Assembly (NCBI GenBank): GCA_029582155.1
Contig: CM055896.1
Span: forward strand, 23,713,184-23,777,183
Source: Panopea generosa
Lineage: Eukaryota; Mollusca; Bivalvia; Adapedonta; Hiatellidae
Length of the DNA stretch: 64,000 nucleotides
Direction: 5' to 3'
A program made the translations under genes and the position numbers. Positions 23,891-47,569 of this stretch are shown here, in pieces (the stretch's first letter is position 1; the number at the start of each line of letters is the position of its first letter). A model generated the notes under the pieces. The model searched no databases and was not told the DNA's origin. It saw only the letters and a program-made list of their open reading frames with translations.

Positions 23891-25963
23891 ATAATGTACT
23901 GTTTGGAAGGGAATCATCAGTTACTGTATTACATATCTTTGTACCATCTCGCAAGGACAGTTGTCATATAATGTACTGTTTGGAAACGAATGGACAGTTA
24001 CTGTAATACTTATCTTTGTACCAACTCGCAAGGACAATTGTCATATAATGTTCCGTTTGAAAATGAACGGCCAGTTACTGTAATACGTATTTTTGTATCG
24101 CTTCGCAACGACAATTGACATATAATGTACTGTTTGGAAGTGAAAAACCAGTTACTGTAATACGTATCTTTGAACCACCTCACTAGGACAACTGTTATAT
24201 AATGTATTGTTTGGAAGTAAATCGCCAGTAATTGTAATAGGTATCTTTGTACAACTTCGCAAGGACAATTGTCATATAATGTACTGTTTTGAGGTGAATC
24301 GCCAGTTACTGTAATATGTATGTTTGTACCACCTAAGTAGGACAATTGTCATATAATGTACTGTTTGGAAGTGAAATGCCAGTTACTGTTATACGTATCT
24401 TTGTACCACCTCGCAAGAGCAATTGTCATATAATGTACTGTTTGGAAGTGAAATGCCAGTTACTGTAATACGTATCTTTGAACCACCTCACTAGGACAAT
24501 TGTTATATAATGTACTGTTTAGAAGTGAAATGCCAGTTACTGTAATACGTATGTTTGTACCACCTCGCAAGAGCAATTGTCATATAATGTACTGTTTGGA
24601 AGTGAAATGCCAGTTACTGTAATACGTATCTTTGTACCACCTCGCAAGGACAATTGTCATATAATGTACTGTTTGGCAGTGAATCACCAGTTACTGTAAT
24701 ACATATCTTTGTACCACCACGCAAGGACAATTGTCATATAATGTACTGTTTGGAAGCGAATCACCAGTTACTGTAATACGTATCTTTGTACCACCTCGCA
24801 AGGACAATTGTCATATAATGTACTGTTTGGAAGTGAAATGCCAGTTACTGTAATACGTATCTTTGTACCACCTCGCAAGAGCAATTTTCATATAATGTAC
24901 TGTTTGGAAGCGTAACACCAGTTGCTGTAATACGTATATATGAACCACCTCAAAATGACAATTGTCATATAATGTACTGTTTGGAAGCGAATCGCCAGTT
25001 ACTGTAAAACGTATGTTTGTACCACCTCACAAGGACAATTGTCATATAATGTACTGTAATACGTAAAAGGTACCACCTCACCAGGATAATTATCATAAAA
25101 TGTACTGTTTGGAGGTGAATGGCCAGTTACTGCAATACGTCTCTTTGTAACACCTCACTAGGACAATTATCATATAATGTACTCTTTGAAAGTAAATCAC
25201 AAGTTTCTCTTATACGTATCTTTGTACCACCTCACAAGGACAATTGTCATATAATGTACTGTTTGGAAGTGAATCACCAGTTACTGTAATACCTATGTTT
25301 GTACCACCTCACAATGACAATTGTCATATATGTACTGTTTGGAAGCGAATCGCCAGTTACTGTAAAACGTATGTTGGTACCACCTCACAAGGACAATTGT
25401 CATATAATGTACTGTTTGGAAGAGAATCACCAGTTACTGTAATACGCATGTTTGTACCACCTCACAAGGACAATTGTCATATAATGTACTGTTTGAAAGT
25501 GAAACGCCTGTTACTGTAATACGTTTCTTTGTACCAACTCACAAGGGCAATTGTCATAAAATGTGCTGTAATACGTAAAAGGTGCCGCCTCACTAGGACA
25601 ATTATCATATAATGTACTGTTTGGAGGTGAATCGCCAGTTACTATAATACGTATCTTTGTACCACCTCACAAGGACGATTATCATATAATGTACTGTTTG
25701 AAAGTGAAACGCCTGTTACTGTAATACGTTTCTTTGTACCAACTCACAAGGACAATTGTCATATAATGTACTGTTTCGAAGTGAATCGCCATTAACTGTA
25801 ATACGTATTTTTGTACCACCTCACAAGGACAATTGTCATATATAATGTACTCTTTGGAAGTGAATGGCCAGTAACTAAAATACGTATACTTTTGCCACCT
25901 AACAAGGACAATTGTCATTTAATGTACTGTTTGAAAGTGAATCGCCTGTTACTGTAGTACGTG
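23891..25963. repeat. 77-bp satellite, left arm
   Basis: The monomer is about 77 bp and contains GACAATTGTCATATAATGTA, CTGTTTGGAAGTGAATCGCC and AGTTACTGTAATACGTATCT, then TTGTACCACCTCACAAG. About 26 copies are present. The last monomer is cut at ACTGTAGTACGTG by the Polinton insertion and the array resumes at 43515 at the corresponding monomer position. Confidence 0.92.
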
Positions 25964-27164
25964 AGTAGTATACGGGTCGGTACAACGCCACGGACTGCGC
26001 ATGCGCGGCGGCCATCTTGTTTTTATTGACTGCGCATGCGCGGCGGCCATCTTGTTTCTGCGCATAGACGGCCATTTTGGATGTGCGTGCGGCGGTCATT
26101 TTGAAAGCGTATCGAAGGGCGGCCATCTTGGATGACTACTAATGGTAACACGTTTGCGCATGTGCGGCGGCCATTTTAGATAACGTCGTATGTGCGGCCA
26201 TAGTTTTAATATAGAAGCCGACTGACGTCTAAGTTTAAAACGATAGTCATGCGATTGATAAGAACGTCTCAAAAGTATACAGAGCTGACTTGTATACTCG
26301 ATCTAGGGCGTGGTCGCGGACATTAAGGGGGGTCAGGTCCTAAGTCATAGACGGAGACGTTTTAGTGACAACCGTTTCTTAAAAAACTAAACGTGAACAA
26401 CATCTATCTATATAGCAACAACTTATACTGTATTAAATTAAAAATAAATAATAAATAAGTAAAACTCAAATAGACTAAACTTTACAAACCTCCTTAAGTT
26501 TAATTAACTATGTTCCTTCTTTCTATTGAAAAAGTATTTATCAATTGTATATCCATTTTAATAACTCATTTTACCTTGTTGACAATACAACGTTCAGCTC
26601 ACAAATGAACATACACTCACTACGCATGTATCGTCTCAATCAATCATACACATTAACACAACCAAACATAACTATTGTAATAAATTAAATAAATAATAAT
26701 AAGCTATTAAAAATCAAATAGACTTTACAAACCTCCTTTAGTTTAATTTGCTATGTTCCCTCTTTCTATGGCAAAGTATTTATCAATTTTTATATCCATT
26801 TCAATAACTCATTTTACCTTGTTGACTATCCAACGTTCAGCTCACAAATGAACATACACTCACTACGTATGTATTGTCTCAACCAATCATAAGACACCTC
26901 GTTAACATAACCAGTCAGTACCAACGCAGTGTCAAATAAGTACGTAGACAATGATGTATTCAAGTGCCAAACTTAATCACCGGACGTCTTAACAATAGAT
27001 CAATGGATCCTTTGTGTAAACGTTCTATTAAAATTCACCTAATATTCAGTTCAAGAGTGAACATGTCTGAGTACATAATAGCTAGTGGAACTATTTCGAA
27101 CACTAGATCAATGGCCCCTTTGCTGTACATAGTAATGATTGGTCTGGTCTGGACAGGTATGTAC
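25964..27164 (+). repeat. Left terminal inverted repeat of the Polinton
   Basis: The stretch matches the reverse complement of 42315-43514. It holds a terminal GC-rich motif array, then an AT-rich 243-bp internal duplication (TTTACAAACCTCC at 26481 and 26724). About 98 bases near 26892-26990 are unique to the left copy. Homology to the right side resumes beyond 27164, reaching the first start codon (27293), where it pairs with 40220-40356. Confidence 0.93.
25992..26210. promoter_or_regulatory. Terminal array of NRF1-like and YY1-like motifs (left)
   Basis: CTGCGCATGCGCGGCGGCCA followed by TCTTG occurs twice in 50 bases and degenerate versions continue, giving about seven copies of GGCCAT(C/T)TTG- or GGTCATTTTG-like cores. 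TGCGCATGCGC is the NRF1 palindrome, and the complement AAGATGGCCGCC is close to the YY1 motif. The mirror copy is at 43270-43490. Binding is inferred from motif similarity only. Confidence 0.5.
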
Positions 27165-27292
27165 TGAACGTGACGTGATGATCTATAAATTGTCACAATA
27201 CAGCGTTGACTAATCAGAATGTAGTAAGAGAGTATAAATAGCTATAACATATGTAATATTGTCATTCTGTCTACAGAACACAAGCAGTCAAT
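27165..27292 (+). promoter_or_regulatory. Left inward promoter, TATA box 27233-27240
   Basis: TATAAATA lies 53 bases before the ATG at 27293, in a stretch that also contains a CRE-like GTGACGTGATG and TAATCAG. The whole stretch is repeated, inverted, in front of the polymerase gene at 40220-40350, where the TATA box is degenerate (ATATAGAAA). Homology extends up to both start codons, so the two units were driven by the same sequence. Confidence 0.6.
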
Positions 27293-27784
27293 ATGGTCAA
27301 CGTGAGAGTATCGTATCAACTTGGACCTTTTATAGCTGTAAAGGTGAAGGATTATGGACACGGAAATGTGAACATTGTATTTTTGCAGTCAGTGTACGTG
27401 GATAAAAATAAATATTGTAAAGACGATAAACCTATGATGAAAGAATTTGTTCTATCTCTACAACAATAGCAACAACTGATATTGCAGATTAACGATATTC
27501 AGAAAGCAGTTGATGATCATAAAGACGGGAAAGAAGGATTTCAAGTAGTTGATTTGAGAGAATTCTGGCTACCGGAGGGAAAAGCTGTGGTCCAACCGAC
27601 GAGAAGAAGAATAGCTCTTAAGTTTGACGAATTCGATATATTAGTGAAACTCAAAACGGAGATTGAGTACGTGATACCCGAAATGGATGGAGAACGTCCG
27701 TGTTGGATGAGTGAAGATCACATGAACCAGGAGGGAGCTCTAACTTGTAGAGAATGTAATCCGAACGACTTTCATAACTGGTGA
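27293..27784 (+). pseudogene. PC4-like (transcriptional coactivator p15) protein, one nonsense codon
   Basis: The frame has 164 codons from ATG 27293, with one TAG at 27467-27469 inside a run of CAA codons, consistent with a single C-to-T change. From about residue 86 the protein reads VVDLREFWLPEGKAV, then PTRRRIALKFDEF and a leucine/lysine helix, which is the pattern of the PC4 single-stranded-DNA-binding fold (acidic-Arg strand, PT-basic-basic-Ile-x-Leu, amphipathic helix). The C-terminus adds CWMSEDH and CRECN, a possible metal site. PC4 proteins bind ssDNA and assist RNA polymerase II initiation in eukaryotes and some large viruses. It is the first gene of the plus-strand unit, just behind the shared promoter. 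The remainder downstream of the stop still encodes the whole PC4-like domain. Confidence 0.65.
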
Positions 27785-27869
27785 CGTGTTTAAACATGTA
27801 TAGACTATTATTAGAAATGACAGCATGTATATGTATCAACCAATCAGATGAAAGTCACATGACTTACTG

Positions 27870-27878
27870 TATATAAAG
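27870..27878 (+). promoter_or_regulatory. TATA box of the BIR gene
   Basis: TATATAAAG lies 35 bases before the ATG at 27913, preceded by CCAATCAGATG at 27839-27849, so the BIR gene has its own promoter-like stretch separate from the upstream PC4-like gene. Confidence 0.5.
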
Positions 27879-27912
27879 AAATAAACGTTTATGACTTTAT
27901 CATTCTACAATC

Positions 27913-28272
27913 ATGAACGTAATAGACGCCATACGCTGTGAATTCGAAGATAGACTTCAAACGTTTGAACACTGGTCTAAGCAAATCATTCCAGACAAGT
28001 TTAAACTTGCCAAGGCGGGATTCTGCTACATGGGAGAAATGGACAAAGTGATTTGTTTTACCTGCGGGATTACTTTGAGACAATGGGAACGTTCGGATGA
28101 TCCGTTGGTGGAACACGTGAAATGGTCTAAAAATTGCGTCTACTTGAAAATTATGGGATATGAAGGTAATCTGAATGTCATAGATAAGGGGACCAACAAA
28201 GGAAGAGTTCACTTCCCAACAACGACTACAACAGGCAGTACTTCACCAGAGTTTGGATTCAATTACTTTTAA
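27913..28272 (+). CDS. BIR-domain (IAP-repeat) protein, 119 aa
   Basis: Residues 8-80 form one baculoviral IAP repeat: C48-X2-C51-X16-H68-X6-C75 gives exactly the zinc-ligand spacing of the family, with the expected aromatic/Gly context (AGFCYMG, VICFTCG, DDPLVEHVKWSKNC). There is no RING domain; a threonine-rich 35-residue tail follows. BIR proteins bind caspases or IAP-binding peptides, or in some cases act in cell division. In a virus-like element a role in blocking host cell death is the usual inference, but a single BIR without RING could also be regulatory. The frame is intact, unlike many neighbours, and has its own TATA box. Lateral acquisition from an invertebrate host is plausible, because IAP genes are numerous in molluscs. 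Confidence 0.88.
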   Translation: MNVIDAIRCEFEDRLQTFEHWSKQIIPDKFKLAKAGFCYMGEMDKVICFTCGITLRQWERSDDPLVEHVKWSKNCVYLKIMGYEGNLNVIDKGTNKGRVHFPTTTTTGSTSPEFGFNYF

Positions 28273-28275
28273 AGC

Positions 28276-28419
28276 ATGTGTGTTAGTATCGTTGCAGTAA
28301 TGATTGGATTTATAGATACTTCAGCGTACCAATATAGATGTTATACATTACGCCAAGAGGCCAGAGAAGCTGCCGACAGACTCGTTGAATGTTTTAAAGA
28401 ATATGACTCACAGATATAA
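28276..28419 (+). CDS. Small ORF, 47 aa, unrecognised
   Basis: ATG 28276 opens three bases after the BIR stop, and the frame ends with TAA at 28417. It has a hydrophobic start (CVSIVAVMIGFID) and a charged helical end (LRQEAREAADRLVECFKEYD). The size, position and helical character suggest a genuine small protein, but I do not recognise it. It overlaps the next small ORF by 17 bases. Confidence 0.35.
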   Translation: MCVSIVAVMIGFIDTSAYQYRCYTLRQEAREAADRLVECFKEYDSQI

Positions 28420-28555
28420 ATACGTGTGTCCGATCTGTCATCATCGTGACGTCATTAACATTTTTAGGCCTCTTAAAGTTACACATGGATCGAGTAAAAA
28501 GCAACTCTATATACGGATACACGAAGTCGTTATTTCGAAACTTTATCTGACATGA
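28403..28555 (+). CDS. Small ORF, 50 aa, with CPIC motif
   Basis: ATG 28403 to TGA 28555 in a different frame from the preceding small ORF, overlapping its end. The start reads YVCPICHHRDVINIF, a Cys-X2-Cys-His-His cluster like half of a zinc ribbon or RING; no second cysteine pair follows, so it may be truncated. Function unknown. Confidence 0.35.
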   Translation: MTHRYKYVCPICHHRDVINIFRPLKVTHGSSKKQLYIRIHEVVISKLYLT

Positions 28556-28613
28556 GTATGTTCAGACATGTTTTAGACTATTAAAAAAGAATTGCGTTCA
28601 TGACCATGAAGTC

Positions 28614-28620
28614 ATATAAA
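28614..28620 (+). promoter_or_regulatory. TATA-like box before the TBP-like gene
   Basis: ATATAAA lies 22 bases before the ATG at 28643. The short distance would give a very short leader, so it may instead serve as part of an intergenic signal. Confidence 0.35.
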
Positions 28621-28642
28621 CAAAACACTTTGAACGAACAAC

Positions 28643-29152
28643 ATGATCACCAACGTGGTGTGCATTACGGATTTACACTGTGATATCAATTTGAAGGATT
28701 TAACAGCGAAATGTACAAACATTGTATACGATCCATTTAAATTCCCTGGAGTCACATGGAAACATAACAGAGTCGGTTTTATGTGTATGGTGTTTGCCAA
28801 TGGAAAATTGATGGTCAATGGAAAAGTAAAAACGATACAAGAAGCCAAACAACGAGTGAGACGGTATGCAAGATTATTACAGAAAATGGATTGGAACATA
28901 ACTTTAACACGCATCGTTATATCTACCACCAGTGCTCACTACAAATTAGACGGTCCATTGGATGTGAACATACTAGCTAAACAATATGGTGGAACTTATG
29001 AAGCAGAACGGTTTCCGGCAGCCATGTTTGTGAAGGATACCATTCACTTTACGTGTTTTCATACTGGTGCAGTATTGATGTCGAGTATCAAGACAGAAAG
29101 ACAATTTTATGATACTGTTATACCTACGTTATTAGAAATGTATATATTGTGA
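28643..29152 (+). CDS. TATA-binding protein (TBP) homologue, 169 aa
   Basis: The whole protein is a two-lobed TBP core with almost no N-terminal extension. Lobe 1 (about residues 4-83) has NVVCITDLHCDINL, FPGV, FANGKLMVNG and the basic helix EAKQRVRRYARLLQK; lobe 2 (84-169) has ITLTRIVIS, ERFPAAMFV, CFHTGAVLM and YDTVIPTLLEMYIL. The four positions where TBP inserts phenylalanines into the minor groove are all Phe (F34, F51, F124, F139). TBP nucleates RNA polymerase II and III initiation at TATA boxes; large nucleocytoplasmic DNA viruses also encode TBP-like proteins. Here it is the last gene of the plus-strand unit of a Polinton whose promoters have TATA boxes. The frame is intact. Lobe 2 is more diverged, with an unusual TGAVLM in place of the SGK-type turn. 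It is clearly not a degraded host exon, because it has no introns and sits inside the element. Confidence 0.9.
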   Translation: MITNVVCITDLHCDINLKDLTAKCTNIVYDPFKFPGVTWKHNRVGFMCMVFANGKLMVNGKVKTIQEAKQRVRRYARLLQKMDWNITLTRIVISTTSAHYKLDGPLDVNILAKQYGGTYEAERFPAAMFVKDTIHFTCFHTGAVLMSSIKTERQFYDTVIPTLLEMYIL

Positions 29153-29194
29153 TTGTGAGGGGACTGCCCTAACCCCATTGTATTGAGAGGAGTT

Positions 29195-29200
29195 AATAAA
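29195..29200 (+). terminator. Poly(A) signal of the plus-strand unit
   Basis: AATAAA 43 bases after the TBP-like stop codon. It faces the minus-strand AATAAA at 29278-29283, about 80 bases away. Confidence 0.6.
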
Positions 29201-29277
29201 AACATTAACAAACAAATATATCGTGTTTATATTGGTAATCAAAATAAACGACAAGTCCATATTCTATTTTACAATAT

Positions 29278-29283
29278 TTTATT
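29278..29283 (-). terminator. Poly(A) signal of the minus-strand unit
   Basis: AATAAA on the minus strand, 11 bases beyond the protease stop (29295). The two convergent units therefore end within about 100 bases of each other. Confidence 0.6.
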
Positions 29284-29294
29284 TACATCATTAT

Positions 29295-29741
29295 TTACAT
29301 ATGTTGAACAAAACGTGTCACACTACGTTCATTTTCATTGGGTTTATTAAACATGTTTATAATTTGTTTCATACTGAAACCATGACATCTGTGATAAGCG
29401 TAGAATAAACAAAATTGACCACACGTCATTGTTCCGACATCTTGTACTTTAATCGTATTGTACTTATAACGACGTTCATTTTAAAGTAATACACGTTTGA
29501 AACGTTTATCATAATGTTCTTGTGGGTGTCCATTAGAATCCCAAAATTCTACAGATCCCCGACTAAAGTAGAACGCAGTCCAATGCTGTCCCGGTTTCGA
29601 ACTTCAATCCGTGTTCACGATATAAATACGAGGTCGATATCGTATGTTCATGGGTAGTTGATCGGCAGCGCATACGCCTCCATATTGTTGTCGGATGGCA
29701 CTGTCTTTTTTCATTAAACGTTCAATTTCTAGTGTACGCAT
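29295..29741 (-). pseudogene. PRO: Adenain-like cysteine protease (capsid maturation), two nonsense codons
   Basis: The frame has 149 codons and starts at an ATG that overlaps the capsid gene's stop by one base (TAATG). It begins with YGGVCAADQLP and YIVNTD, then the His region GQHWTAFYF, the acidic region FWDSNGHP and the nucleophile region TCGQFCLFYAYHRC, which is the His-Asp/Glu-Cys order of adenovirus-type proteases that process virion proteins. Family lengths of about 140-200 aa fit. A TGA at codon 46 (29604-29606) and a TAA at codon 87 (29481-29483) interrupt it without any frameshift; all catalytic positions remain. It is the last gene of the minus-strand unit. Confidence 0.85.
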
Positions 29742-30985
29742 TACTCCAAAGTGACGTTCCTATTACTGTCAATTTTCATCAATGATGGAAACTGGGCATA
29801 CACGATGGCTGTGCACGGTTCCGGCAATGGTTCGGTAAACTTCAGTTCCAGTCTCGTATGTCCTCTCTGTATGTCTCGGTTTCTATGATCTCCGTCTATG
29901 TTGAAAACGTACAAACAATACCCGTCTTTGAATGCATGTCTGCTAATCACTCCAACTAGCTGACTAGTGACTGGATAAAGACGGTCGTAGGCGTCAACGA
30001 AGTTGTTACCCTTATAATTGGGTTGGAAAGGATCGGTAGGTACTGATTGTCCATCCACAAAAAAGCCAGAGTAGTTACAATTGTAGTGTTGAAAGTTAAA
30101 CGGATTCTTGGTATAATCCCCATGATGCGCCGATGACGACACGACTCCTACAATTAATTGTTTAGGGATATCTCCTTGAAATAAATCGTCTACTGTGAAC
30201 GAATATTGCCCCTGTGACATAGAGTAGGATTTGATCAATGTCTTCGTGTAAGGATAAAGAGCCTGTGTGTCTTTCAACACTCCCGTTTGAGATAGTAGAA
30301 CTGCTGGGTTCAATTTTATCATGGCTACTTTTAGGTACACATCTGTGATCTTAACTTTATAGTCCGATGCCGGTGACATCAAACGAAAACTGTCGGCATT
30401 TTGCCATAACTTAAGATGGACGGGTACGCCGTTAAGACGCGCTCTCTCTTGTTGGCATAGATCGAGAGGTAAATGACCGATAAGATCGATTTCCTTGCTT
30501 TCTAGGGTGAACCCTGGTCTTGAATTTAATCCACTATTGGTTCCAGCGGGAGAAGGATTATCAAAGTCAGAGTCATCTTTGAAAAACAGTTGACTTTGTA
30601 GTTCATGTTCAGTTATAGTAGTGTTGAGTAACGTATCCAGGTACCCTTTGTAAGCATAATTGTTTCTGATTTCGCTCACTGGATGTTGCTGAATCTTGAA
30701 GTCCACTTGTGAGAAAAGAGTGTGCAAGGGAGCATTAGTCAACCCCACGAATTCATCTTTTGCAATGTCTGAACCATCATTCTTAATGATTTTCAGTTTG
30801 ACATAGAGTAAAGTTTGACGTAGATCCAAGTACGACGTAGATGACCCGTCAATGTTAAACTCAATCACAGATCCTTCTGTCCACTGATTAGAAGGTCTAT
30901 ACTGTGTCCGTGACATTTTCTGGGATGCCGTCTCTACGCGTTTAGGTTGAAATAAATACAAGTCTTCGTATTGTACCTCTTCCAT
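29741..30985 (-). CDS. MCP: Major capsid protein (Polinton double-jelly-roll type), 414 aa
   Basis: The intact frame of 414 codons has the features of metazoan Polinton/adintovirus capsid proteins: an N-terminus with VIEFNIDGSSTSYLDLRQTL, a central LIGHLPLDLCQQERARLNGV region, VKITDVYLKVAMIKLNPAV, and a C-terminus LELKFTEPLPEPCTAIVYAQ. The family builds hexon-like pseudohexameric trimers of an icosahedral shell. It lies directly upstream of the protease with a one-base overlap and downstream of the basic protein with a 52-base overlap. It is the longest undamaged core gene of the element. Family assignment rests on recognised sequence pattern and gene order, not on a search. Confidence 0.85.
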   Translation of the reverse strand: MEEVQYEDLYLFQPKRVETASQKMSRTQYRPSNQWTEGSVIEFNIDGSSTSYLDLRQTLLYVKLKIIKNDGSDIAKDEFVGLTNAPLHTLFSQVDFKIQQHPVSEIRNNYAYKGYLDTLLNTTITEHELQSQLFFKDDSDFDNPSPAGTNSGLNSRPGFTLESKEIDLIGHLPLDLCQQERARLNGVPVHLKLWQNADSFRLMSPASDYKVKITDVYLKVAMIKLNPAVLLSQTGVLKDTQALYPYTKTLIKSYSMSQGQYSFTVDDLFQGDIPKQLIVGVVSSSAHHGDYTKNPFNFQHYNCNYSGFFVDGQSVPTDPFQPNYKGNNFVDAYDRLYPVTSQLVGVISRHAFKDGYCLYVFNIDGDHRNRDIQRGHTRLELKFTEPLPEPCTAIVYAQFPSLMKIDSNRNVTLE

Positions 30986-31329
30986 CTTGAGGATAGGTAA
31001 TCTTGTTTCTTAGTATTCTTTGTTTGTACAGACGGCTTTCGTTTCTTTTGAACAGTTTTTGCCTTGGCAGACTTCCCCTTATGTGTTTTTGGTCTGCCGT
31101 TTAAAGTTTTCCTGGTAGGTTTAAGGGTGGTTGACACACCCTTATTAACTTTTTGCTCTTTCAGTTCGGATTTGGCGAGATTCATGGCTTGTTGTACTGG
31201 AGACACCACGGTGATTTCGGGTTTGATGGTGCCACCAATCTGATCCACTACGTAGTAGCCTCTAGGATCTTTACGTAATTTACCTTCTGCCATCCTTCGG
31301 AAATGCTTTGTCCATTTCTCTACGTCCAT
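30934..31329 (-). CDS. Basic Polinton protein (possible virion core/DNA-packing protein), about 131 aa
   Basis: The better start is the ATG at 31329 (MDVEKWTKHFRRMAEGKL), overlapping the preceding gene's end by 10 bases; an upstream start at 31356 adds nine residues. The N-terminal half has an aromatic/charged helix and RGYYVVDQIG; the second half is strongly basic (KPTRKTLNGRPKTHKGKSAK and onward). Such proteins sit next to the capsid gene in many Polintons and adintoviruses and resemble adenoviral core proteins in composition. DNA binding is inferred from composition. The C-terminal 17 codons overlap the start of the capsid gene. Confidence 0.55.
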   Translation of the reverse strand: MDVEKWTKHFRRMAEGKLRKDPRGYYVVDQIGGTIKPEITVVSPVQQAMNLAKSELKEQKVNKGVSTTLKPTRKTLNGRPKTHKGKSAKAKTVQKKRKPSVQTKNTKKQDYLSSRWKRYNTKTCIYFNLNA

Positions 31330-31730
31330 ATTTTCTTTCTCAAATGCAAAGTGCAATACAATACGGTCGTATCTGTTTCCAGTAGTTGTAAGTGTCTCCC
31401 CCTTATAAAGATTCTAATATGTGACAGTGTATCCGTTCTCACTCGGATGTAGTAAGGGTCTGTGAACGTGAATAATGCTTTATTCTTTTTTTCTCTACGT
31501 ACGCTTCTTAGTACCGGAGCTAATGTTTCAGCCACATACGATTCTTGACAAATATCCGAACAGACGTAAAACAAATCCTCTCCTATACGTATTTCAATTT
31601 CCTTTAAAGCCACTTCCCAATCACTATTTAAATTATAAGTCTTTGGTAACTCTACTGTAAAATCGGTCGATGTATTGAGCGGGTGTTGATTCTTGGAATT
31701 ACGACTATCAAAAAAGAAGTAATGACCCAT
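31320..31730 (-). CDS. Putative minor capsid (penton-like) protein, 136 aa
   Basis: The start was chosen at the second ATG (MGHYFFFDSRNSKNQHPLNT); an earlier one adds five residues. The body has alternating strands (STDFTVELPKTYNL, DWEVALKEIEI, FYVCSDICQESYVAE, LAPVLRSVR, YYIRVRTDTLSHIRIFIRG, TVLYCTLHLRKK), compatible with a small jelly-roll. Proteins of this pattern accompany the major capsid gene in invertebrate Polintons, and a penton role is the usual inference. The intact frame follows a TATAAGGGTGTA motif 25 bases upstream and overlaps the next gene by 10 bases. It could alternatively be a different virion surface protein. Confidence 0.45.
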   Translation of the reverse strand: MGHYFFFDSRNSKNQHPLNTSTDFTVELPKTYNLNSDWEVALKEIEIRIGEDLFYVCSDICQESYVAETLAPVLRSVRREKKNKALFTFTDPYYIRVRTDTLSHIRIFIRGRHLQLLETDTTVLYCTLHLRKKIWT

Positions 31731-31755
31731 GACTACTATATACAAAGTACGTTAT

Positions 31756-31767
31756 TACACCCTTATA
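31756..31767 (-). promoter_or_regulatory. TATAAGGGTGTA motif at a gene junction (site 1)
   Basis: On the minus strand TATAAGGGTGTA overlaps the stop codon of the upstream PC4-like/membrane gene and lies 25 bases before the next ATG (31730). The same 12-mer occurs at the ATPase/small-protein junction (about 34151-34162). It may be a late promoter TATA element. Confidence 0.4.
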
Positions 31768-32209
31768 AGTTTTTAAGGGTTTTCCAGTAGGTCCTCGCCT
31801 CTGCAATTCCTTCGTCAATGAGTGGTACCTTTTGCTTTAAACTCCTCTACTGGTTCAAGTCCAGCTGTATACCGATCGGTGTGGCACTTCCATTTATAAA
31901 TATTCTAATGTCCATAAACACTTGATCGTCCATATTACACACTGTAGCATAGGTATTGCCACGTAGAGAATATTGCTTAACGTAAACACAAGCGGACTGG
32001 TTCAGATTAGGTTTCATGTCGACAGGCTTGACTTCAGTAGGACAGTGGGATACACCAATCATGACGATTCCCGGTAATGCGCATGTACTCAGAATGAATA
32101 TAACGCCGATCCATTTAATAATGGTCAAATGACATTTAATATTTCTTGGCAGTTCTTCTCCAAACGGTTCTAACATGTGACTCCCCACACTAAGAATATT
32201 GTTTGACAT
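31763..32209 (-). pseudogene. Membrane-anchored PC4-like protein, one nonsense codon
   Basis: The frame has 149 codons, with TAG at codon 121 (31847-31849) where the conserved tryptophan of a PC4-like domain is expected. Residues 31-53 (IKWIGVIFILSTCALPGIVM region) form one transmembrane segment. The distal part reads DDQVFMDIRIFINGSATPIG and IQLDLNQ, then after the stop a lysine/leucine helix, which repeats the pattern of the PC4 ssDNA-binding fold seen in the first plus-strand gene. A transmembrane segment ahead of such a fold is odd; it may be a virion membrane or entry-independent structural protein that borrowed the fold. It overlaps the integrase end by 20 bases. Confidence 0.5.
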
Positions 32210-33314
32210 CTTTTTCAGGAATCCAGCTATCGTATTTCTTGGGCCAATGTAACCAACGCACCAACACTTCTTTCTGTTTGTTTCTCGTCCTTTTTTGTAG
32301 TATCTGTTCTATATAGTACGCTGTAGTGTCGTTTACATTGACTGCTTGCAGGACAGATCCATAAAATGTTCCTTCTATCTCTTCCCCGGACCAATCTTCC
32401 AGAGTATATACGTGAATATCTTCTCTCTTATATCTCGTTTTGACTTTAAACAGTTCACCCGTCCACTTTTGTGAATATTCTCTGTCGAATATTCCTCTCA
32501 CATGTGATATACGTACAACTTGTCCTATTTTGTACTTATACCTAGTCTTCGGTTTACTCTTTGTTTGCTTAGGGTTCGACTTCCCCTTATGTGTTCTCAA
32601 CAGGTACTGTTCCAAACGATTTTCACCTTCTGTTTCTTTATTGACAGAGCTTGGAGATCTGCCTAAACTCCGATGCACTGTGTTATTGAACTATACACCG
32701 TATCATTCAATACATTAATATAACGTTTTGTTCTTTTCTTCATGAGATAGCGAAATAGTTTATGCTTTAAAGTTTTAATGATTCTTTCGACGTAATTCGC
32801 TTTTGGATCATTTTGTGTCACAAAATGATGAATTCCAACGGTTTTCAGATAGGCGGAAACTTATCTGTGACGGAATTCCTTCCCTTTATTGGTCCTAATG
32901 ATATTAGGCCGTCTACCTTGATTCAGTATGTGATTTAATGCTTTCACAACTTCTTTAAGCTTCTTTCGTTTTTAAAGGTTGACACCACACATATCTAGGA
33001 AATATGTCAATCGCAACCAGTAAATATTTATAACCGTCGTTGTCTTTGATTAATTGCGACATATCAGCCAAATCTATATCCCATTGTGAATCTAATCCAG
33101 CCACGGTCACTCTATTTCTGGGAAATTTGCGACGTGCGCCACGAGTCAAAGAATATGACTCTTGATCCTGTAACCATTTTCTAATTCTGTATCTTCCAAT
33201 TTTAAATTTTCCTTCAGATTTCACCGCACGATACAGTTTGTCTGGTCCCGCGTAACTACCCGGATGGTTGACATCATAATAAATGGAGGTTAAATATTTC
33301 TTCCAATCAGACAT
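32190..33314 (-). pseudogene. INT: Polinton integrase (DDE type, with chromodomain), frameshifted
   Basis: Retroviral-type integrase that inserts the element and makes 6-bp duplications. From the N-terminus: zinc-binding-like region with KLYRAVKSEGKFKIGRYRI, catalytic core with DSQWDIDLADM (first Asp) and AIDIFPRYVWCQPLK, the second catalytic motif, the glutamate motif ANYVERIIKTLKHKL, then an SH3-like part (YKIGQVVRISHVRGIFDREY) and a C-terminal chromodomain (YYIEQILQKR, EVLVRWLHWPKKYDSW). Breaks: a frameshift near 32955-32962, a TAA at 32861-32863 and a frameshift near 32680-32700. At the second catalytic position the codon (32888-32890) encodes Asn where the family has Asp. The gene overlaps its neighbours at both ends (8 and 20 bases). 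Confidence 0.88.
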
Positions 33315-33807
33315 GAATCCACTTTTTCAGTTTATTCTTAGGTATTCCAGGAGGTCTTATTTTCTTATTTGGAAGTTGTGTTGTCTCAGTCGATAGAACT
33401 CTTGTGAGTGTAGTAGGTAAATATGTCTCTTGTAAACCATTATAAAATTCGACTGTTCCTTTCAGTTGATGGCCCTTATGTTTGTACTGGCTATCTTTCA
33501 GTAAATCTGTTATATGTGATCCTGCTACGATTGACCCTTTGTAAATAAGTTCACCAACATCATTCCAATTTAATGTGTTTTCGGGGTCCCTCATGATATG
33601 AGCCAATATAGCTCCAGTTTTGTATTTGTATTGTAGAGGCATAGAATCTAATATATGTTCTGATTGAAGTTGTCCCCCTCCGTATTGTTCCATTTCTTCT
33701 GTAATAAATGACTCACGTTGTTGCTGTTGTGGTTGATCTGGTTGATGATGATTTTGTTTTATTAAACGTTCATATTTATCATACGGTAAAAGTATAGATT
33801 TCTTCAT
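33307..33807 (-). CDS. Conserved-type Polinton protein, 166 aa
   Basis: The frame is intact, starts with MKKSILLPYDKYERLIKQ, then has a glutamine-rich linker, a helical segment LDSMPLQYKYKTGAILAHIM and WNDVGELIYKGSIVAGSHIT with DLLKD. This layout recurs in the gene upstream of integrase in invertebrate Polintons as I recall, but its role is not known to me; a small virion or morphogenesis protein is possible. It overlaps the upstream gene by 4 bases (ATGA) and the integrase start by 8, so it is part of a tightly packed unit. Confidence 0.5.
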   Translation of the reverse strand: MKKSILLPYDKYERLIKQNHHQPDQPQQQQRESFITEEMEQYGGGQLQSEHILDSMPLQYKYKTGAILAHIMRDPENTLNWNDVGELIYKGSIVAGSHITDLLKDSQYKHKGHQLKGTVEFYNGLQETYLPTTLTRVLSTETTQLPNKKIRPPGIPKNKLKKWIHV

Positions 33808-34130
33808 TTTATATAACTTCTTAATGCCGGTTCCACGGATTTCAGAATTAAAGCAATAACACTGCTTTGCCTACACAACAACTCTTTTTTCTTCTTTAGA
33901 CTGATGGACGAATCGCCAATTTGCCTGATGACTTTTCGGTGCTTCTTCAATTGAGTCTTCTTGGAGGGGGTGAGAGGTAAAATACTTCGCAACAGGTTCA
34001 CAATGATCTGAATTAATGCCATCAATTGATCGTTCGTGATGGTATCCAATAATTGTCTTCTTTAAAGTTTTGATGTAGTTGACATTAACAATTGGAAATA
34101 GCTCCAGTGTTTCTTAACCAAGTTGGACAT
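33804..34130 (-). pseudogene. Small Polinton protein with lysine-rich helix, one nonsense codon
   Basis: ATG 34130 opens a 109-codon frame (MSNLVKKHWSYFQLLMSTTS) with a TAA at codon 23 (34062-34064); the remainder reads LLDTITNDQLMALIQIIVNL, LTPSKKTQLKKHRKVIRQIG and SLKKKKELLCRQ, ending with a hydrophobic stretch. Short proteins with this order (helix, LT..K..L.KH...R, basic segment, hydrophobic end) are common in Polintons and adintoviruses and have been likened to adenoviral core peptides; that likeness is from memory and uncertain here. It follows a TATAAGGGTGTA motif by 20 bases and overlaps the next gene by ATGA. Confidence 0.5.
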
Positions 34131-34150
34131 CTTGCTTTAACTTGTATCGA

Positions 34151-34162
34151 TACACCCTTATA
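34151..34162 (-). promoter_or_regulatory. TATAAGGGTGTA motif at a gene junction (site 2)
   Basis: The minus-strand TATAAGGGTGTA overlaps the ATPase stop codon and lies 20 bases before the ATG at 34130, the same arrangement as site 1 at 31756-31767. Confidence 0.4.
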
Positions 34163-35017
34163 CACTTTTGTAAACAATGGGATTTTCTCCAGGAAATATT
34201 CGGCTTCTCAGTCGATATTTATCTTCAGCTTGTGGTGATAAATCAATTACTAAGTAATGATACGGTTCTTTGACTGCATCTTCATAGGCTTGTATAAGGA
34301 TGTTACCCTTATGAGGAAACATTTGTGCATTCAAGTGTCGAATCTGACTAGTCCCTCTTATATTCTTGAACAACACCAAATACCAACTGTTCAATGCAAT
34401 GGTTCTTGCTGATCTACCTTGACCGTATAAATTCTGTACAATAAAGATCACACTTAAACGACGATGGTGACACCCTTGAGTAAAGTAAACAGCAACTCCA
34501 TCTCTTTGTTTTCTATCACGTGTTGTTGTAGGTCATCCAGGACAACGAGACCATGTGAACTTTCTGCAAACTCTTCAAGTTCAGCTTGCATATGTAATCC
34601 TTCATGTAATGTGAGATTCGGTATCGTTTGTTCCATCTCATCAAAAAATGTTTGATATATACTGTAACAGTACATAATATTCTTTGGTGGATCTCGTACA
34701 TACATTCCACTACTGTTCTGTAAAAGTCTGTACACACATCTAGATTTTTCACTTCCCGTTGGCCCAGAGACCATGATGCTTGAGCATGGCTCAAAAGGTA
34801 GTAGACTTTGCGTTTCCCACCATTGTTCTTCTTTATTTTCTTTAGGCCCCCATCTTAGGTCACTGTGTGGTGTCATCGTATCTAATGATGGTTCTTTTTT
34901 CGTTGTTGATGTGAGATTATGAACTTGTTTCATATGATTTGGTAGACGTAGTAAACCTTTAGTCAAACATATAGGACAGTCTTTTCTTACACGTCCCATG
35001 TTTGTGTTAAACTTCAT
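34158..35017 (-). pseudogene. ATP: FtsK/HerA-type genome-packaging ATPase, one frameshift
   Basis: This motor pumps DNA into capsids. An N-terminal C2H2 finger (C14, C17, H28, H33 in CPICLTKGLLRLPNHMKQVH) precedes the P-loop at residues 85-92, GPTGSEKS, where a Glu replaces the usual Gly before the catalytic Lys. The Walker B motif is LVVLDDL (157-163). Near 34471-34490 a one-base shift breaks the frame; the second part continues with VIFIVQNLYGQGRSARTI, ALNSWYLVLFKNIRG and NAQMFP, typical of the C-terminal half. The family usually has about 250-290 residues, matching the joined span. An in-frame ATG at 34999 (MGRVRKDC) may be the true start. Confidence 0.85.
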
Positions 35018-35059
35018 ATGTTTTTCTCCTTATGGCTAACCTAACAATGACATTGCTTC

Positions 35060-35552
35060 ATGACGAGTGGCACTGAGAGTGGCACTCATTGCCCTGAGAG
35101 TGACCCTGAGTGGCCCTGAGAGTGGCTCTGAGAGTGGCCCTCGTGGCCCTGAGAGTGGCACTGACTGGCCCTGAGAGTGGCCCTGAGTGGTCCCTAAGAG
35201 TGGCCCTTGTGACCCTGAGAGTGGCCCTGAGTGGCCCTGAGTGATCCTGAGTGGCCCTCGTGGCCCTGAGTGGCCCTGAGAGTGGCCCTTGTGACCCTGA
35301 GAGTGGCCCTCGTGGCCCTGAGTGGCCCTGAGTGTGGCCCTTGTGACCCTGGGTGGCTCTGAGAGTGGCCCTTGCGACCCTGAGAGTGGTCCTGAGTGGT
35401 CCTGAGAGACCCTGAGAGTGACCCGTGTGGCCCTGAGAACGGCCGGTATGCCCCTGAGAGTGGCCCGTATGGCCTGAGAGTGGCCCTGAGAATGGCCCGC
35501 ATGGCCCCGAGAACGGCCCTCGTGGCCCTGAGAATGGCCCGCGTGGCTCAAA
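35060..35552. repeat. GC-rich minisatellite between ATPase and polymerase
   Basis: Units of GTGGCCCTGAGA and the shorter GTGGCCCTGA repeat for about 500 bp in otherwise AT-rich element DNA. It begins close to the upstream boundary of the ATPase gene and abuts the polymerase stop codon (35553-35555). Long frames across it (glycine/histidine/serine repeats) are repeat translation. Confidence 0.85.
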
Positions 35553-38500
35553 TCAATATCCGTAAGGTACTGTATCAAAATTGTCCAACCGTCTTCGTTT
35601 TGTGTATACCATTTTATAAGTCTTTTGTTCTTCTCTGTTGTACAGTTTTCTCTTCCGTTTGTCTCTACATATCTTATTAGGATTCGTAACTGTAATTGTG
35701 TTTTGATCCGATTGTGTCACGATAGATTTCACTGTTTAAAAATTAATGAGTTTACTGTTTGTAAAATTTAAAGTAAACCCCCTCACTTTACACGTTTCAT
35801 TTCCAGTGTTTGTTGTGTACGTTTAGTTTTTAGGACCCCCAGACACAAACTGTACAATATGTTCTCCCCCTCCAAGTTCATCTGTCAGTTCTCCCAAGTA
35901 ATCACCGAGTGGAGGATCATATTTTCCTGTTCGACTCACATAGATCACACTGTCTGTATCGTAGTAGAGGACACGTCTATCGAGGGGTTCCAACACACTA
36001 TAAAGTTTTATTCGGGCCCAACAGGTGGTAAATGTAGCCAAATAAATGTTAGTCTTGCTGTCTTTGGGTAGACAGTCCTTTTTGTACGCCCACTCCAACT
36101 GAATGGTATCATCCGCCACAATATGAAAGTTTTGAACTTGTTTCATGGGATCTGTGAACACTTGAAAGAACTGGTCGACTTCCACTTCGTTGAAGAAATT
36201 GGTCTGATGCATGTTTAAGCGTTGTCCAAATTTTCCCCAGAAACTATTGAGGCACAATTTCGCCAGTGCTCTCAGTCCTGGATTCTTTTCTATGGTCGCT
36301 ATGTCTAATGAAACCCCTTCTTTTTCAAAATATTGTTCAATATAAGTTTTCATGTCATCTTCAGTCTTGATCCATTCTGGTGGTCCGCTCGCTTCTTGTT
36401 TGAACTTGAAAAAGGTGTTGATGTAGTTCGTAAACAACCCTCCTTCTCGTGTTTCTGCATCATACTTAGTTGTTTCTTTCCAGTGATACACTTCGTATAT
36501 TTTAATAAGTTTGTACCCCAATCGTACTGCTGTTTGAATTTCTGGGGTACACCACGTTCCTGTCATTGCTCTATCTTCATCGGAACATGTACATTCTGTT
36601 TGATTCTCGTTGTCTGCGCAGGTTCTACATAGTGGGAATTTCAGTTTTCCATTCGATCGATAGGGGAGGACCGGATGATACAGTCCTTTTGGTGGTAGAA
36701 TCTTCACTTTTGCCACTCCAAAATATTGGTTGATGTCTTGAAAGTCTGAAGTGATGATCTCGGGGTGACCCACGGGGTATTAGCAGTATTTGTTGACCCA
36801 AGGGTATAATGATGTAAAATCCACATATTTGATTTCTTCATTTTATTTGACTTTGTAATAGAGTTGACTTGCGTTGGTCCTACCACCGAAAAAACTGTCA
36901 CGAGGGTCTAAACGATCAGTGATGTCCAAGTGATTGATGAATTGTCTCATGTCTTGATTCTGCTCACATTGTTGATGAAATTCATGTTCCAAAACGCATA
37001 TTTAACGTATTTAATGCCAAGATTTTTGATGTAGGATTTTTTCTTCAGAGTTAACGCGTAAAGTTCTTTCATAGATTGTTTCGTTAATGGGTGTGTCATT
37101 TCTTCTTGGTCCCCCGGGAAGCAATTGGGGCACCCGTGAAACAAGCAACCGTGATACTCGTAAGCAGTATTGGTCTCTAAACAATAACCGTCTAACTTGT
37201 ACCGTGTGCCTGTTAAACATTTTTCACCGCCATTCAGGGCATGTTGTATGCGTACGCCCTCTACCTCAGCCATCCATTTTAGCCATTCAATTGATGCTTT
37301 ACTGTACTGGTTGTTATAACCTCCTGGTGATATTTTAGCAATTGGTGTTGAAACGAATTCCTTGTCTTTAATAATCACGTCTTCTAGTTCACCTTCTCCA
37401 ATCCATCCGCCATCTTTTTTCACGTGAATCTTTCCATCAACGAATTTAGCAGGTGTCCATTTTTTATTTTTGTTCAGTTTTACTCTCCATGTTTCTTCTA
37501 AAAATTTCGTCCTGTAGACATTCATACAAACTGACGCGAGGGTGACTGAATCGAAGGGATCAACAGCACCCACCCATTTCTTTTCCATTTTTCCTTTATC
37601 ATTGATAGCTTCTTTCTTTTCACCATTGGCTGCCATCAAAAGGTGTTGAAACTGAAGACAATATTGTCGTAAAATGTCCACATCACTTCTACAATAATCT
37701 TCCATTTCTCGACGTAAGTCAAATATTTCACCTTTCTTTGTCTGATGCCAGGAAAGAAACTCTTCTCTCTCTTTTGAGCTCATAAAGTCAGTGCCATAAT
37801 ATTTGGGGTCAGGATATGGTCCGATATATTTCTGGTTTTCATTTGTGTTAAAGTAGTGTGGGAACCACCCTTTCTTCAATTCTTTCAGATCAAACGCTTT
37901 CGGTAATGCTGAAAATTTCATGGGTAAAAAGTTTAAACTGTCAATAACTTTGATATGTAGGTCTTTCTCAACAGTCATGTACATGATTTTCGATCCATTT
38001 TAAATAATTGTGTCAGGTCTCAAAGAATTGTCAATCAGGTATTCCAACAAAAAGTAACCATCATAACCCTTCATGTTGTGAGCAATAGCTTTGAAATACT
38101 GATGTTGGTCGGAAAACAGCCACTCTCCAAACTTTGTCGTCGTGCCATCGCCTTGAAAAATGGTTTCTCGAAATCCACATTTCCCCTGACCTTCACCGTC
38201 AATATCTTCGCACTCTTCACACCGTGTTCCACATGCTTTACACACAGAGTCCGGTTCCAATGTCTTGTCTATACATTTTGGGCAGACAGTATGAGCCACC
38301 ACTAAATTGGGTCGATGTGTGGCTTTCCCGCACCAAGACGTTTTACAATGTTGACATTTTGTACACGGTTTACACGATTTGCCATCTTTACCGTCTCTAA
38401 AATTTGATTTCTTAGTTGGTGTGTACCCCTCTTGACATTCCATTTTCTCATCTTGACTACATTCGAAATCGAAAAAAATGAATTTGGGTATGAAGTCTTC

Positions 38501-39862
38501 TTTGGTGGGTATTGCTCTCAGGTAACATTGATGATCATCCATGACAAATTGTTCGCAAGAATTACAGTAATATTCTCCACATTGGTGCTCTTCCTTTTTT
38601 CTCTTCTCTATGTTTAGCACTTTGTAACACGTAGTACATTTCCACCATTTTTCACACTGACAGGGTCCTGCTACCTGCCCTTTCCTTTGACCATTGAGGG
38701 TTTGGGTTGAACTTTGTGCCTTTGGTAACACTCCGTAGATCGACAGGTCATATTACAGCTATCACATTCGAGAGTAGTATCTTTTTTTGGACATTGTTGA
38801 CTCTTGCAGACAATACAGGAGATGTCACACTGGTGATTTTCGCGGTTGTTGTAATGTTTTAAACATTTAACACAAAAATATATGGCACTGAAGAAGCCCG
38901 TAATCGAAGATATCGCGTGAAAATGGTCGTCATCCACCAAGTAAATGTAGATGCATGGCCGTTCATCTGTACTCTGACTGGTGATGAATTTGTTGCCCAA
39001 TCTAGCATTGACGACCATCACACGTACGCCCATTACTTCTTCAAACGCCTCTAAATCATTGAGACTGGCCGGACGATCTAAGGGCACACCTGCCAATTGA
39101 CTTATAGCTACAGCCAATTGTCGTTGTTCATCTCGTTTCTTATTCATCAAATGTTTATAATAACTTTCTGGTATCTTTTTGTGTTCCAAAATCAACTCTA
39201 AATTACTTTTCTTTCCTCTATTCTTGGTAATCTCTTTCCATTATTCGAGGGTACATCGATTTAACTTAGCCCACGCCACTCCTATCGCTCTCGCCATACA
39301 TAACTGGTCCTCGTTTTTCTATGGTAACGACAGAGGTCTTGCGCTGAAGCGAGTTATTTTTTCCTCTCAATTTCGTAATTCTGCGTCTAGGTCCTCCACT
39401 ACCTTTGGGTAAATCGATAGAGCCAATTGTGATCTCTATACTCTCATTGACAGCGAGAGTTTGATGACTATTGAGTACCTTCTCGATAGATCTCATTACG
39501 GTATCGGCATTGAGTTGATCCCACGGTTGTAGAGGAACGACGATCGGGTCATATAACCCCTCATGTTGAATCACAACTCTTCCCAAATCGTTTCCCACCA
39601 AATCACCTCGAGCTTGTTCTAATATATCATCAAACATATCATGTAATTCTTGCTGAACATCTTTTAGATGCTGCCCCCTATGTTCTTCTTCAATTTTCAC
39701 TTGGTACGATTTGTCCACGGCAGCGTTTTTAGCGTAAGTACGCTCCGATTTCTTTCGAATGGTATATTCTAATTTTCTCGAAGGTGCTGAGTCGTACCGA
39801 TGGGAAGGACCCGGTAGCGGCCCTTCACCATACCCTGACTGTATAACTGGTTACAAGGGATT
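35553..39862 (-). pseudogene. PolB: Protein-primed DNA polymerase B, main body, multiply interrupted
   Basis: Replicative polymerase of the element. Visible in order: an N-terminal region with RVVIQHEGLYDPIVVPLQPW and GSGGPRRRITKLRGKN; a cysteine-rich region (CVKCLKHY, CIVCKSQQC, CDSCNMTC); exonuclease motifs FFDFEC, AHNMKGYDGYFLLEYL and YCRSDVDILRQYC; palm motif A DFTSLYP, motif B KLCLNSFWGKFGQR and motif C YYDTDSV; and a C-terminus ending VPYGY. All catalytic motifs are retained. Breaks include stops at 39851-39853, 39241-39243, 38000-38002, 36843-36845, 36780-36782, 35823-35825 and 35736-35738, plus frameshifts near 39290, 38720 and 36980. The span, about 1440 codons, fits large metazoan Polinton polymerases. 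Confidence 0.92.
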
Positions 39863-40219
39863 TCATTCACCGTTTTCTACACAGGCTACCGTTAATTCGT
39901 TCATTTCTTCGTCAAACAATAACGCTTGTATAGATCCGTCTACCTCTTCCTGCTCTCTTACATACTCTATGGCCACATCTAAATCATCTTCATTAATGTT
40001 CTGCATAGTGTCGAGCGGTCCTCCCAAATTTTGTAGACTTGTGTTTAATTCTTCATTGACAAATACATCTCCGTACTGGGGGTTTCTCAGTTGAAACAAA
40101 CGAAACCGCACTGCAGGGAAATCCTGTATTCCCAACGTCACAACAAAATTCATCAGTTCGTCTGCGTCGGTAAAAGAATTCATCATCATCATCTCAAATA
40201 TAGGAGAAATATTTTCCAT
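39863..40219 (-). CDS. 118-aa ORF, probable N-terminus of PolB or separate leader gene
   Basis: It opens at ATG 40219 directly behind the shared inward promoter and ends with TGA at 39863. The frame after that stop is the same frame as the polymerase, and only a second stop (39851-39853) separates them, so it most likely was the polymerase's N-terminal extension. It contains PIFEMMMMNSFTDADELMNF and FRLFQLRNPQYGDVFVNEEL and is acidic near its end (NINEDDLDVAIEYVREQEEV). Alternatively it is an independent small gene. No domain is recognised. Confidence 0.45.
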   Translation of the reverse strand: MENISPIFEMMMMNSFTDADELMNFVVTLGIQDFPAVRFRLFQLRNPQYGDVFVNEELNTSLQNLGGPLDTMQNINEDDLDVAIEYVREQEEVDGSIQALLFDEEMNELTVACVENGE

Positions 40220-40356
40220 GTTTTTGGTTTGAGTTCTGTAAACAGAATGACAAAATCACAGATGTTATAGCTTTCTATATTCTCTTACTACATTCTGATT
40301 AGTCAACACTGTATTGTGACAATTTATAGATCATCACGTCACGTCAAGTTCATGCT
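40220..40356 (-). promoter_or_regulatory. Right inward promoter (inverted copy of the left one)
   Basis: Nearly the same sequence as 27165-27292, inverted, up to the ATG at 40219. Shared parts include GACGTGATGATCTATAAATT and TAATCAGAATGTAGTAAGAG. The TATA box present on the left is degenerate here (ATATAGAAAG). Confidence 0.6.
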
Positions 40357-40904
40357 GATTGGTTATTTATTTATAGAATATAGCGTCATGTCCAGACACT
40401 CACAATGTCTTTTATTCAATAACATTACGAAAGAGAATTGAATCAAAACTTTCATTTTATATCATTGTTCAAATAAAAACGTTCTTTAATACAAGTATCG
40501 ACGTGTTACACCTACCAGTCCATTTCATTTTGGATTGGATTCTGAATCGTGAGAAAATACTGATGTTTCTAGACTCCAAGTTTGTTGAAATCGACATATA
40601 GTTAATGAAGTTATGACCTTTTTACGCATGAGTGATTCCACTTCCGGTCCGATTATATCAACTGATAGAGCCTAAAAAGTTATTTTGCACGATACCCAAC
40701 AAGGCTATATTATCTCATAAATTGACCCAATTATGATCGTTTGAAATTTTGGCGCAATAAAGCGTTGAATTGTGTGACGTCACACAACTTTTAAATCGTG
40801 ATATCTCGAAAACGGTAAGAGAAAGACCAATACGTATAACATTTTCCTTCTGCGTGTGTTGAGAGCTTTCAAACGTAACCAAAACAAATATTCTACGATG
40901 AAGA

Positions 40905-42000: not shown

Positions 42001-42042
42001 TTAATAATAATAATAATAATAATAGTAATAGTAATAATAAAG
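42001..42042. repeat. (TAA)n microsatellite
   Basis: Imperfect TAATAATAATAG run inside the 40357-42314 insert, followed by AAAGACTTTATTT. Confidence 0.85.
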
Positions 42043-47405: not shown

Positions 47406-47569
47406 GTTTAAATACATTTTCAACACATCAGAAGTTATATATAATTTTGCAATATTCAATTCTGTTGATGAAGGAATGAATCTGAATACTATCACCTTCC
47501 TTTGGCAAGTAACTGACACACTTTCTGATATAAAGTATTTTGACCGAGTATGGTTGGGAACTAAACAGT
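47406..47569. other. Short unique spacer between satellites
   Basis: AT-rich sequence without a gene. Confidence 0.4.

Follow-up and report, generated by a model that had tools for sequence, protein, structure and literature searches.

A TATA-binding protein gene in a Polinton element of Panopea generosa and its family of divergent relatives

Organization of the Polinton element

The window analysed here is a 64,000-nucleotide stretch of contig CM055896.1 from the bivalve Panopea generosa (GenBank assembly GCA_029582155.1, forward strand, positions 23,713,184 to 23,777,183), and positions below refer to it unless another sequence is named. It contains a Polinton (Maverick/adintovirus-like) element of 17,551 bp (25964..43514), delimited by inverted repeats and a target-site join and inserted within a 77-bp satellite array. 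Outside the element, a large part of the window consists of satellite arrays (12841-18088, 23883-25962, 43559-47404, 47565-49388, 52132-55084 and 61531-64000; units of 33, 77, 49, 31 and 47 bp). When the flanks were joined with one 6-bp copy, the satellite unit was matched without gaps at 101 of 120 positions, versus only 65-73 matches when the joined flanks were shifted by 1 to 6 bp. The two copies of the target-site duplication (TACGTG, 25958..25963, on the left; TAAGTG, 43515..43520, on the right) were identical at five of six positions. The left terminal inverted repeat (TIR; 25964..26863, + strand, with weaker repeat pieces onward to 27296) shared four repeat pairs, 95-98% complementary, with the right one (42618..43514, - strand). 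Polintons are small dsDNA viruses that use a family-B DNA polymerase (PolB) of their own for replication and insert themselves into host DNA. They are defined by this polymerase, an integrase with a chromodomain, a double-jelly-roll major capsid protein, TIRs and a 6-bp duplication; the element shares this set with known Polintons, adintoviruses and virophages, the long TIRs and the 6-bp target duplication being those just described.

Several repeated motifs were observed in the element. Three palindromic GCGCATGCGC sites lay in the TIRs (25993-26181, 43297-43485) and none elsewhere in the window, and the TIRs also held 10 of the 13 window occurrences of AARATGGC; we take these motifs to be NRF1-like and YY1-like, respectively. 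An enhancer-like array (40910..41822) was composed of six TGACGTCA[CT]TT[CT]CGG sites, mostly on 154-bp tandem repeats and absent from the rest of the window, each presumably a CRE plus an ETS-like site. An inverted duplicate (27159-27296 versus 40216-40353, 87%) spanned the promoter regions of each strand's first gene, i.e. the PC4-like gene and a 118-aa ORF at 39863-40219.

On the + strand, a candidate PC4-like coactivator or single-stranded DNA-binding protein (27293..27784) was interrupted by an in-frame stop, its second piece matching Pfam PC4 at E 0.025, under the cut-off. It was followed by an intact 119-aa gene with a BIR domain of the inhibitor-of-apoptosis type (27913..28272; Pfam BIR E 7.4e-22), likely an anti-apoptosis gene of the element, and by the adjoining TATA-binding protein (TBP) gene (28643..29152), which is intact, intronless and 169 aa long. 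The PC4-like candidate, the BIR gene and the TBP gene may form a host-interaction block.

The remaining genes were on the - strand. Two related loci, designated L001 and L002, were found by scanning genome contigs with the capsid family. A protease remnant (29295..29480) displayed the motif TCGQFCLFYAYHRC, which we take to be adenain-like; it had no Pfam match, and its position corresponds to that of a protease-like ORF following the capsid gene in both L001 and L002. Peptidase_C5 was weakly matched in L001 (E 0.069). The double-jelly-roll major capsid protein expected of a Polinton was encoded by an intact gene of 414 aa (29741..30985). Its relatives with a named source come, among others, from Pinctada imbricata and from contigs deposited as Solemya velum gill symbiont, which would fit a bivalve-like host. 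Upstream came a candidate small basic virion protein (pX, 30934..31413), an ORF with similar ORFs recognised by eye in L001 and L002, and a candidate small capsid protein (31320..31751) proposed from its position and from a motif presumed to be penton-like, with no significant Pfam match. The retroviral-type integrase with its C-terminal chromodomain (32190..33326) was broken, its pieces matching Chromo at E 1.3e-7 and, weakly, rve at E 0.067. The packaging-ATPase candidate (34158..35029) was likewise broken (AAA_22 E 5.9e-4, under the cut-off). Between it and PolB lay an ORF made of GC-rich 10-12 bp repeats (35036-35716, - strand), with more than one frame open. PolB itself (35823..39240) was split into several broken pieces, of which the two N-terminal ones were placed by position; DNA_pol_B_2 (PF03175) matches at 35823-36773 (E 2.5e-17) and 36947-37984 (E 5.1e-12) assigned it to the viral/organellar type. 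None of the 29 translated ORFs examined from the element (most of at least 100 aa, with some overlap among them) contained a TFIIB domain. This copy of the Polinton is probably no longer active.

Identity of the TBP gene

The first-pass annotation, made from the letters of the window, had proposed that the element carries a 169-codon, two-lobed TBP core, a claim that was to be abandoned if no significant TBP profile match appeared. The match was strong (Pfam TBP, PF00352, 75.4 bits against a cut-off of 22.9), and a profile match to yeast TBP covered residues 2-166, hence both lobes. The predicted structure displayed the saddle fold of TBP, and the four intercalating phenylalanines named at the outset (F34, F51, F124 and F139) were indeed retained. 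A chance open frame was ruled out by this homology and fold. The persistence of an intact TBP frame within a decayed element may be luck, which is possible because the frame is short.

Among viral structures, the best match of the TBP model was BFVD A0A5P9U4S6 (189 aa, TM 0.79, 22% identity); this protein could be an unrecognised relative. BFVD matches also included Heterosigma akashiwo virus and Abalone asfa-like virus, and two herpesvirus proteins were found among the weak ones. The herpesvirus U58 match is presumably a UL87 homologue.

Family members and linkage to Polinton genes

A protein search retrieved 26 TBP relatives with 36-75% identity, 10 of them exactly 169 aa long. The profile search extended this to 145 matches; among the best 120 of these 145, 118 preceded two cellular-type TBPs, one of which was from Echinostoma caproni. 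Pfam TBP was matched by all 28 of the 28 aligned family members.

L002 (8,883 bp) provided a second family member with its DNA context. Its TBP gene (1159-1695, Pfam E 1.5e-27), 37% identical to that of the window, was followed after 52 bp by an open integrase gene (1748-2875) and then by the capsid gene (3485-4771) and the protease-like ORF (4768-5211), while an interrupted PolB occupied the opposite strand. Both loci had integrase rve matches (E 4.2e-10 in L002, 7.9e-12 in L001). No TBP was found in the 13.5 kb examined of L001, where integrase, capsid and protease-like genes were present; the L001 sequence starts inside the integrase gene, and in L002 the TBP gene precedes it. Both stretches of Polinton DNA are filed as bacterial (L002 as a Bacteroidia MAG contig, L001 as the end of a scaffold of Solemya velum gill symbiont), which likely reflects eukaryotic contamination of public bacterial assemblies.

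Two further associations rest on equal contig sizes and not on DNA read: TBP P0011 and capsid P0099 each come from one contig of 14,476 bp, and TBP P0017 and capsid P0051 each from one of 2,666,751 bp. These were the only exact size matches among 118 TBP and 118 capsid contigs (the latter representing 118 of 120 rows listed), and jittered sizes gave a mean of 0.007 chance matches for contigs above 10 kb. Of the 119 family members, Polinton linkage covers four: the window and L002 by DNA read, P0011 and P0017 by size match. The same TBP gene, which the first-pass annotation had suggested looking for in other Polintons, is thus found in L002 by its DNA and in two further contigs by equal size.

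Scans of IMG/VR with P0001, A1, A2, A4, A7, a PolB piece and the capsid protein returned no confirmed relative. A scan with cellular-type TBPs recovered two giant-virus-like TBPs, and TBPs as such are therefore detectable there. In phage records, the sole TBP match was to a tailed haloarchaeal virus, Haloarcula virus HJTV-2 (L003), which is present in two records; the match covered 49% of the query with 27.6% identity, and the TBP lies at 31047-31661 of the record.

Conserved and altered residues

Residues were mapped in yeast TBP numbering onto 99 family rows, i.e. the 98 of 119 proteins with at least 155 aa (the 21 shorter ones being dropped) plus L002. The roles given to single residues are those of yeast TBP. 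The intercalating positions were Phe or Tyr in most rows (F99 in 94, F116 in 98, F190 in 80 and F207 in 93 of 99). Glu or Asp remained at the TFIIB-contact positions (E186 in 92, E188 in 96), and R137 of the basic N-lobe helix was retained in 97. In the window protein, R123 stands in place of a Leu beside the TFIIB-contact glutamates. The minor-groove face of the C-lobe was consistently altered, with N159 replaced by Thr (96/99), V161 by Ser (94/99), V203 by His (75/99) and L205 by Thr or Asn (86/99). What we take to be the paired central asparagines were accordingly not conserved as a pair, N69 being retained in 91 of 99 rows and N159 lost as above. Since the TBP profile and fold were both found, the N159 change was considered a within-family variant.

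The Polinton protein thus resembles cellular TBPs in fold, two-lobed organization, intercalating aromatics, TFIIB-contact acidic residues and basic N-lobe helix, and differs from them by its low identity (about 27% to yeast TBP), its lack of an N-terminal extension and the C-lobe DNA face with its Thr159, Ser161, His203 and Thr/Asn205. The family protein is likely a promoter-recognition factor. Substitutions at positions 194, 203 and 205 redirect TBP from TATAAA to TGTAAA. One review describes triple mutants of the second TBP repeat with altered specificity, positions not being given there (PMC10005294).

Promoter sequences

Each of the three TBP-side genes, all on the + strand, was preceded by a TATA box: TATAAACAA (28615..28623), a mere consensus match, 28 nt upstream of the TBP ATG; TATATAAAG at -43 of the BIR gene; and TATAAATAG about 60 nt upstream of the PC4-like candidate. 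The first is awkward for a normal start site, its distance to the ATG being so short. On the capsid side (- strand), TATAAGGGT (31767) was found 37 nt before the ATG of the penton-like candidate and TATAAGGGG (31407) 78 nt before that of the pX candidate. The initial proposal that the TBP matches the TATA boxes of the element's genes was supported only in part, the DNA face of the protein being altered and some capsid-side promoters being different.

The capsid-side variant was summarized as TATAAGRG and counted in three stretches (window 29741-35030, L001 1-4400, L002 1101-5211). The capsid strand carried it 14 times, versus 0.5-0.8 expected from Markov models, and the opposite strand not once; none of the 1,680 anagrams of the word was commoner. 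At six of 19 gene starts TATAAGRG began between -28 and -60 (background 3.35%, P 2.6e-5), the motif having been discovered and tested on the same sequences; the other 13 capsid-side starts were devoid of it in this interval. Three different genes, belonging to two elements, had the exact 11-mer TATAAGAGGAA upstream (at -36, -41 and -47), and the 8-mer TATAAGAG was found upstream of six of 23 starts, two of whose coordinates were off an ATG (one by one base, one guessed), a count reached by no 8-mer in 500 shuffles. When all words were considered, the shuffle test gave 0.006 for the 7-mer and 0.068 for the 6-mer TATAAG, which fails. The longer TATAAGRGG was seen twice in L001 (0.17 expected) and twice in L002 (0.10 expected). 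According to a review (PMC10005294), TATATGTA has >7, <7 and ~40% of the activity of TATATATA in tobacco, Drosophila and HeLa, respectively, and host TBP performs poorly with G at TATA position 6.

Comparison with other viral TBPs

TBP is usually regarded as a factor borrowed from the cell by viruses without their own RNA polymerase, herpesviruses being the best-known exception. Virus-encoded TBPs have been described in giant viruses, mirusviruses and herpesviruses (PMC11410667, PMC10132985, PMC7498053, PMC12085832). None was found in Polintons, adintoviruses or virophages among the top-ranked results of the literature searches or in the Polinton papers searched for it; the first-pass annotation likewise did not know TBP as an established gene of Polintons or adintoviruses. 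A 2023 paper names TATA-binding proteins in elements of an alga that putatively derive from mirusviruses.

The herpesvirus vTBPs (KSHV ORF24, EBV BcRF1, HCMV UL87) are viral TBP-like proteins working with host RNA polymerase II (Pol II). In beta- and gammaherpesviruses, the vTBP replaces TBP at late promoters, characterized by TATT plus RVNYS, early ones having TATA; this early TATA/late variant-TATA split offers a close working parallel (PMC7498053). The vTBP itself binds the Pol II CTD, bears extra domains and is one of six viral factors. In contrast, the Polinton protein is a bare 169-aa core with its TFIIB acidic residues kept, encoded in a 17.5-kb element; it displays neither the CTD-binding N-terminal domain nor the six-factor setting of the herpesvirus late pre-initiation complex.

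TBPs of nucleocytoplasmic large DNA viruses share with the present one the fact of being virus-encoded. Asfarvirus B263R belongs to the early genes, and a role at late promoters has been proposed for it (PMC7163114); CpV-BQ1 has been proposed to redirect the host polymerase by its own TBP and TFIIB (PMC12085832); and viral TBPs are reported to vary at TFIIB-contact positions (C.L3.2 being ~40% conserved), nearly all TBP viruses also carrying TFIIB (PMC7221094). The Polinton TBP differs from this type in that it retains both acidic positions and that the 29 ORF translations of its element include no TFIIB. Mirusviruses, with TBP in 59% of genomes (PMC10132985), are likewise a large-DNA-virus group with a TBP and are set apart, by description, through their herpes-like capsid and genomes of up to hundreds of kb.

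Origin and proposed role

The tree comprised 110 rows: the 99 family rows, five cellular eukaryotic TBPs, two giant-virus-like ones (L004 and L005, so called by gene content and size, on IMG/VR contigs of 79.7 and 35.5 kb) and four archaeal ones including one from a haloarchaeal virus. The family, in which linkage to Polinton genes is limited to the window, L002, P0011 and P0017, formed one clade (support 100/99) on a stem of 1.17 changes per column. It was separate from the cellular and the two giant-virus-like TBPs, which clustered together (88/89). In the same alignment, identity to yeast TBP was 27% for the window protein and 78% for the flatworm TBP P0240. A recent host retrocopy absent from sibling Polintons, the outcome that would have undone the first reading, was ruled out by this 27% identity, the existence of at least 118 relatives, the separate clade and the copy in L002. 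That a host TBP or TBP-related gene was captured as a hitch-hiker by this one copy is hardly tenable: TBP is a cellular gene and the mobile-element copy is intronless, but a captured host gene accords poorly with 27% identity where a flatworm TBP reaches 78%, with at least 118 relatives of which the 98 long enough fall with L002 into a single clade, and with the presence of the same gene in other Polintons. A recent move into Polintons from nucleocytoplasmic large DNA viruses also appears distinctly improbable. Many giant viruses encode TBPs (BFVD matches; PMC7221094, PMC11410667), yet the two giant-virus-like rows, the only such rows in the tree, grouped with cellular TBPs, and the best viral structural match was only 22% identical. 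An ancient capture of TBP from the host or another virus at the base of the clade is possible.

We consider it probable that the TBP frame represents a true gene, inherited within a Polinton clade, and that it encodes a divergent but complete TBP that steers host factors to viral promoters. The protein would be made early, from an ordinary TATA promoter, and would bind and bend the element's promoter DNA in the nucleus. There it would recruit host TFIIB and thereby host Pol II, so that viral promoters would be favoured over host ones through these recruited factors. Recruitment of host TFIIB and Pol II is the simplest mechanism because the acidic positions have been preserved and no TFIIB-like protein is among the 29 ORF translations. 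Against this reading stand the lack of a TBP in the 13.5 kb of L001, the TATA box so close to the TBP ATG, and R123 of the window protein. The viral TBP may in addition recognise a shifted sequence and serve as an early-to-late switch, a proposal made because the DNA face of the C-lobe is changed in nearly all members and TATAAGRG replaces TATA(A/T)A at some capsid-side genes.

How far this last proposal goes depends on the reading of TATAAGRG. In its full form, a re-cut viral TBP would read a private TATAAGRG at capsid promoters and use host TFIIB, amounting to an early-to-late switch independent of the herpesvirus TATT. We hold this only tentatively and think it rather unlikely, the more so as most of the TATAAGRG sites lie inside ORFs: 10 of 14 are within a listed ORF (one of them only via an ORF listed from an upstream GTG), two are at an ORF end and two outside. 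The motif could instead be a coding by-product (Tyr-Lys-Arg/Gly codons, or Leu-stop at gene ends), the viral TBP using ordinary TATA boxes, which in our opinion has only slightly less than an even chance of being right. These locations speak for a by-product, as do the capsid and integrase starts of the window, which are without TATAAGRG, and the whole window, in which TATAAGRGG was not enriched (2 seen, 0.96 expected). Against it stand the exact TATAAGAGGAA before three genes in two elements, the positional enrichment and the top rank among 1,680 anagrams; moreover, a promoter can sit in the preceding ORF because Polinton genes are packed. A different use of the protein would be directed against the host, by occupying TATA boxes or titrating TFIIB/TFIIA, resulting in host shut-down with no viral promoter choice. 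Small nuclear viruses gain from host shut-off, the changed C-lobe DNA face could mean that productive binding was lost, and the adjoining BIR gene suggests a host-manipulation module. Yet the aromatics, N69 and the TFIIB acidic residues are jointly conserved, as expected of a working promoter factor, and a TATA-like word recurs at some capsid genes; we regard this anti-host use as unlikely.

Significance

The family represents a new lineage of viral TBP, in an element class for which the literature searched showed no TBP, and unusually combines conserved cofactor contacts with a changed DNA face. Because TBP relatives sit beside capsid genes in other elements, small nuclear viruses may steer the host transcription machinery to their own promoters. 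How TBP specificity is rewritten while TFIIB still binds is an old question, which becomes testable with more than 100 natural sequences. If the proposed reading is true, Polinton TBP cores would constitute a natural set of altered-specificity TBPs and would give a handle on how Polintons time their genes, with a promoter switch operated in a 17-kb element through one protein of 169 residues.
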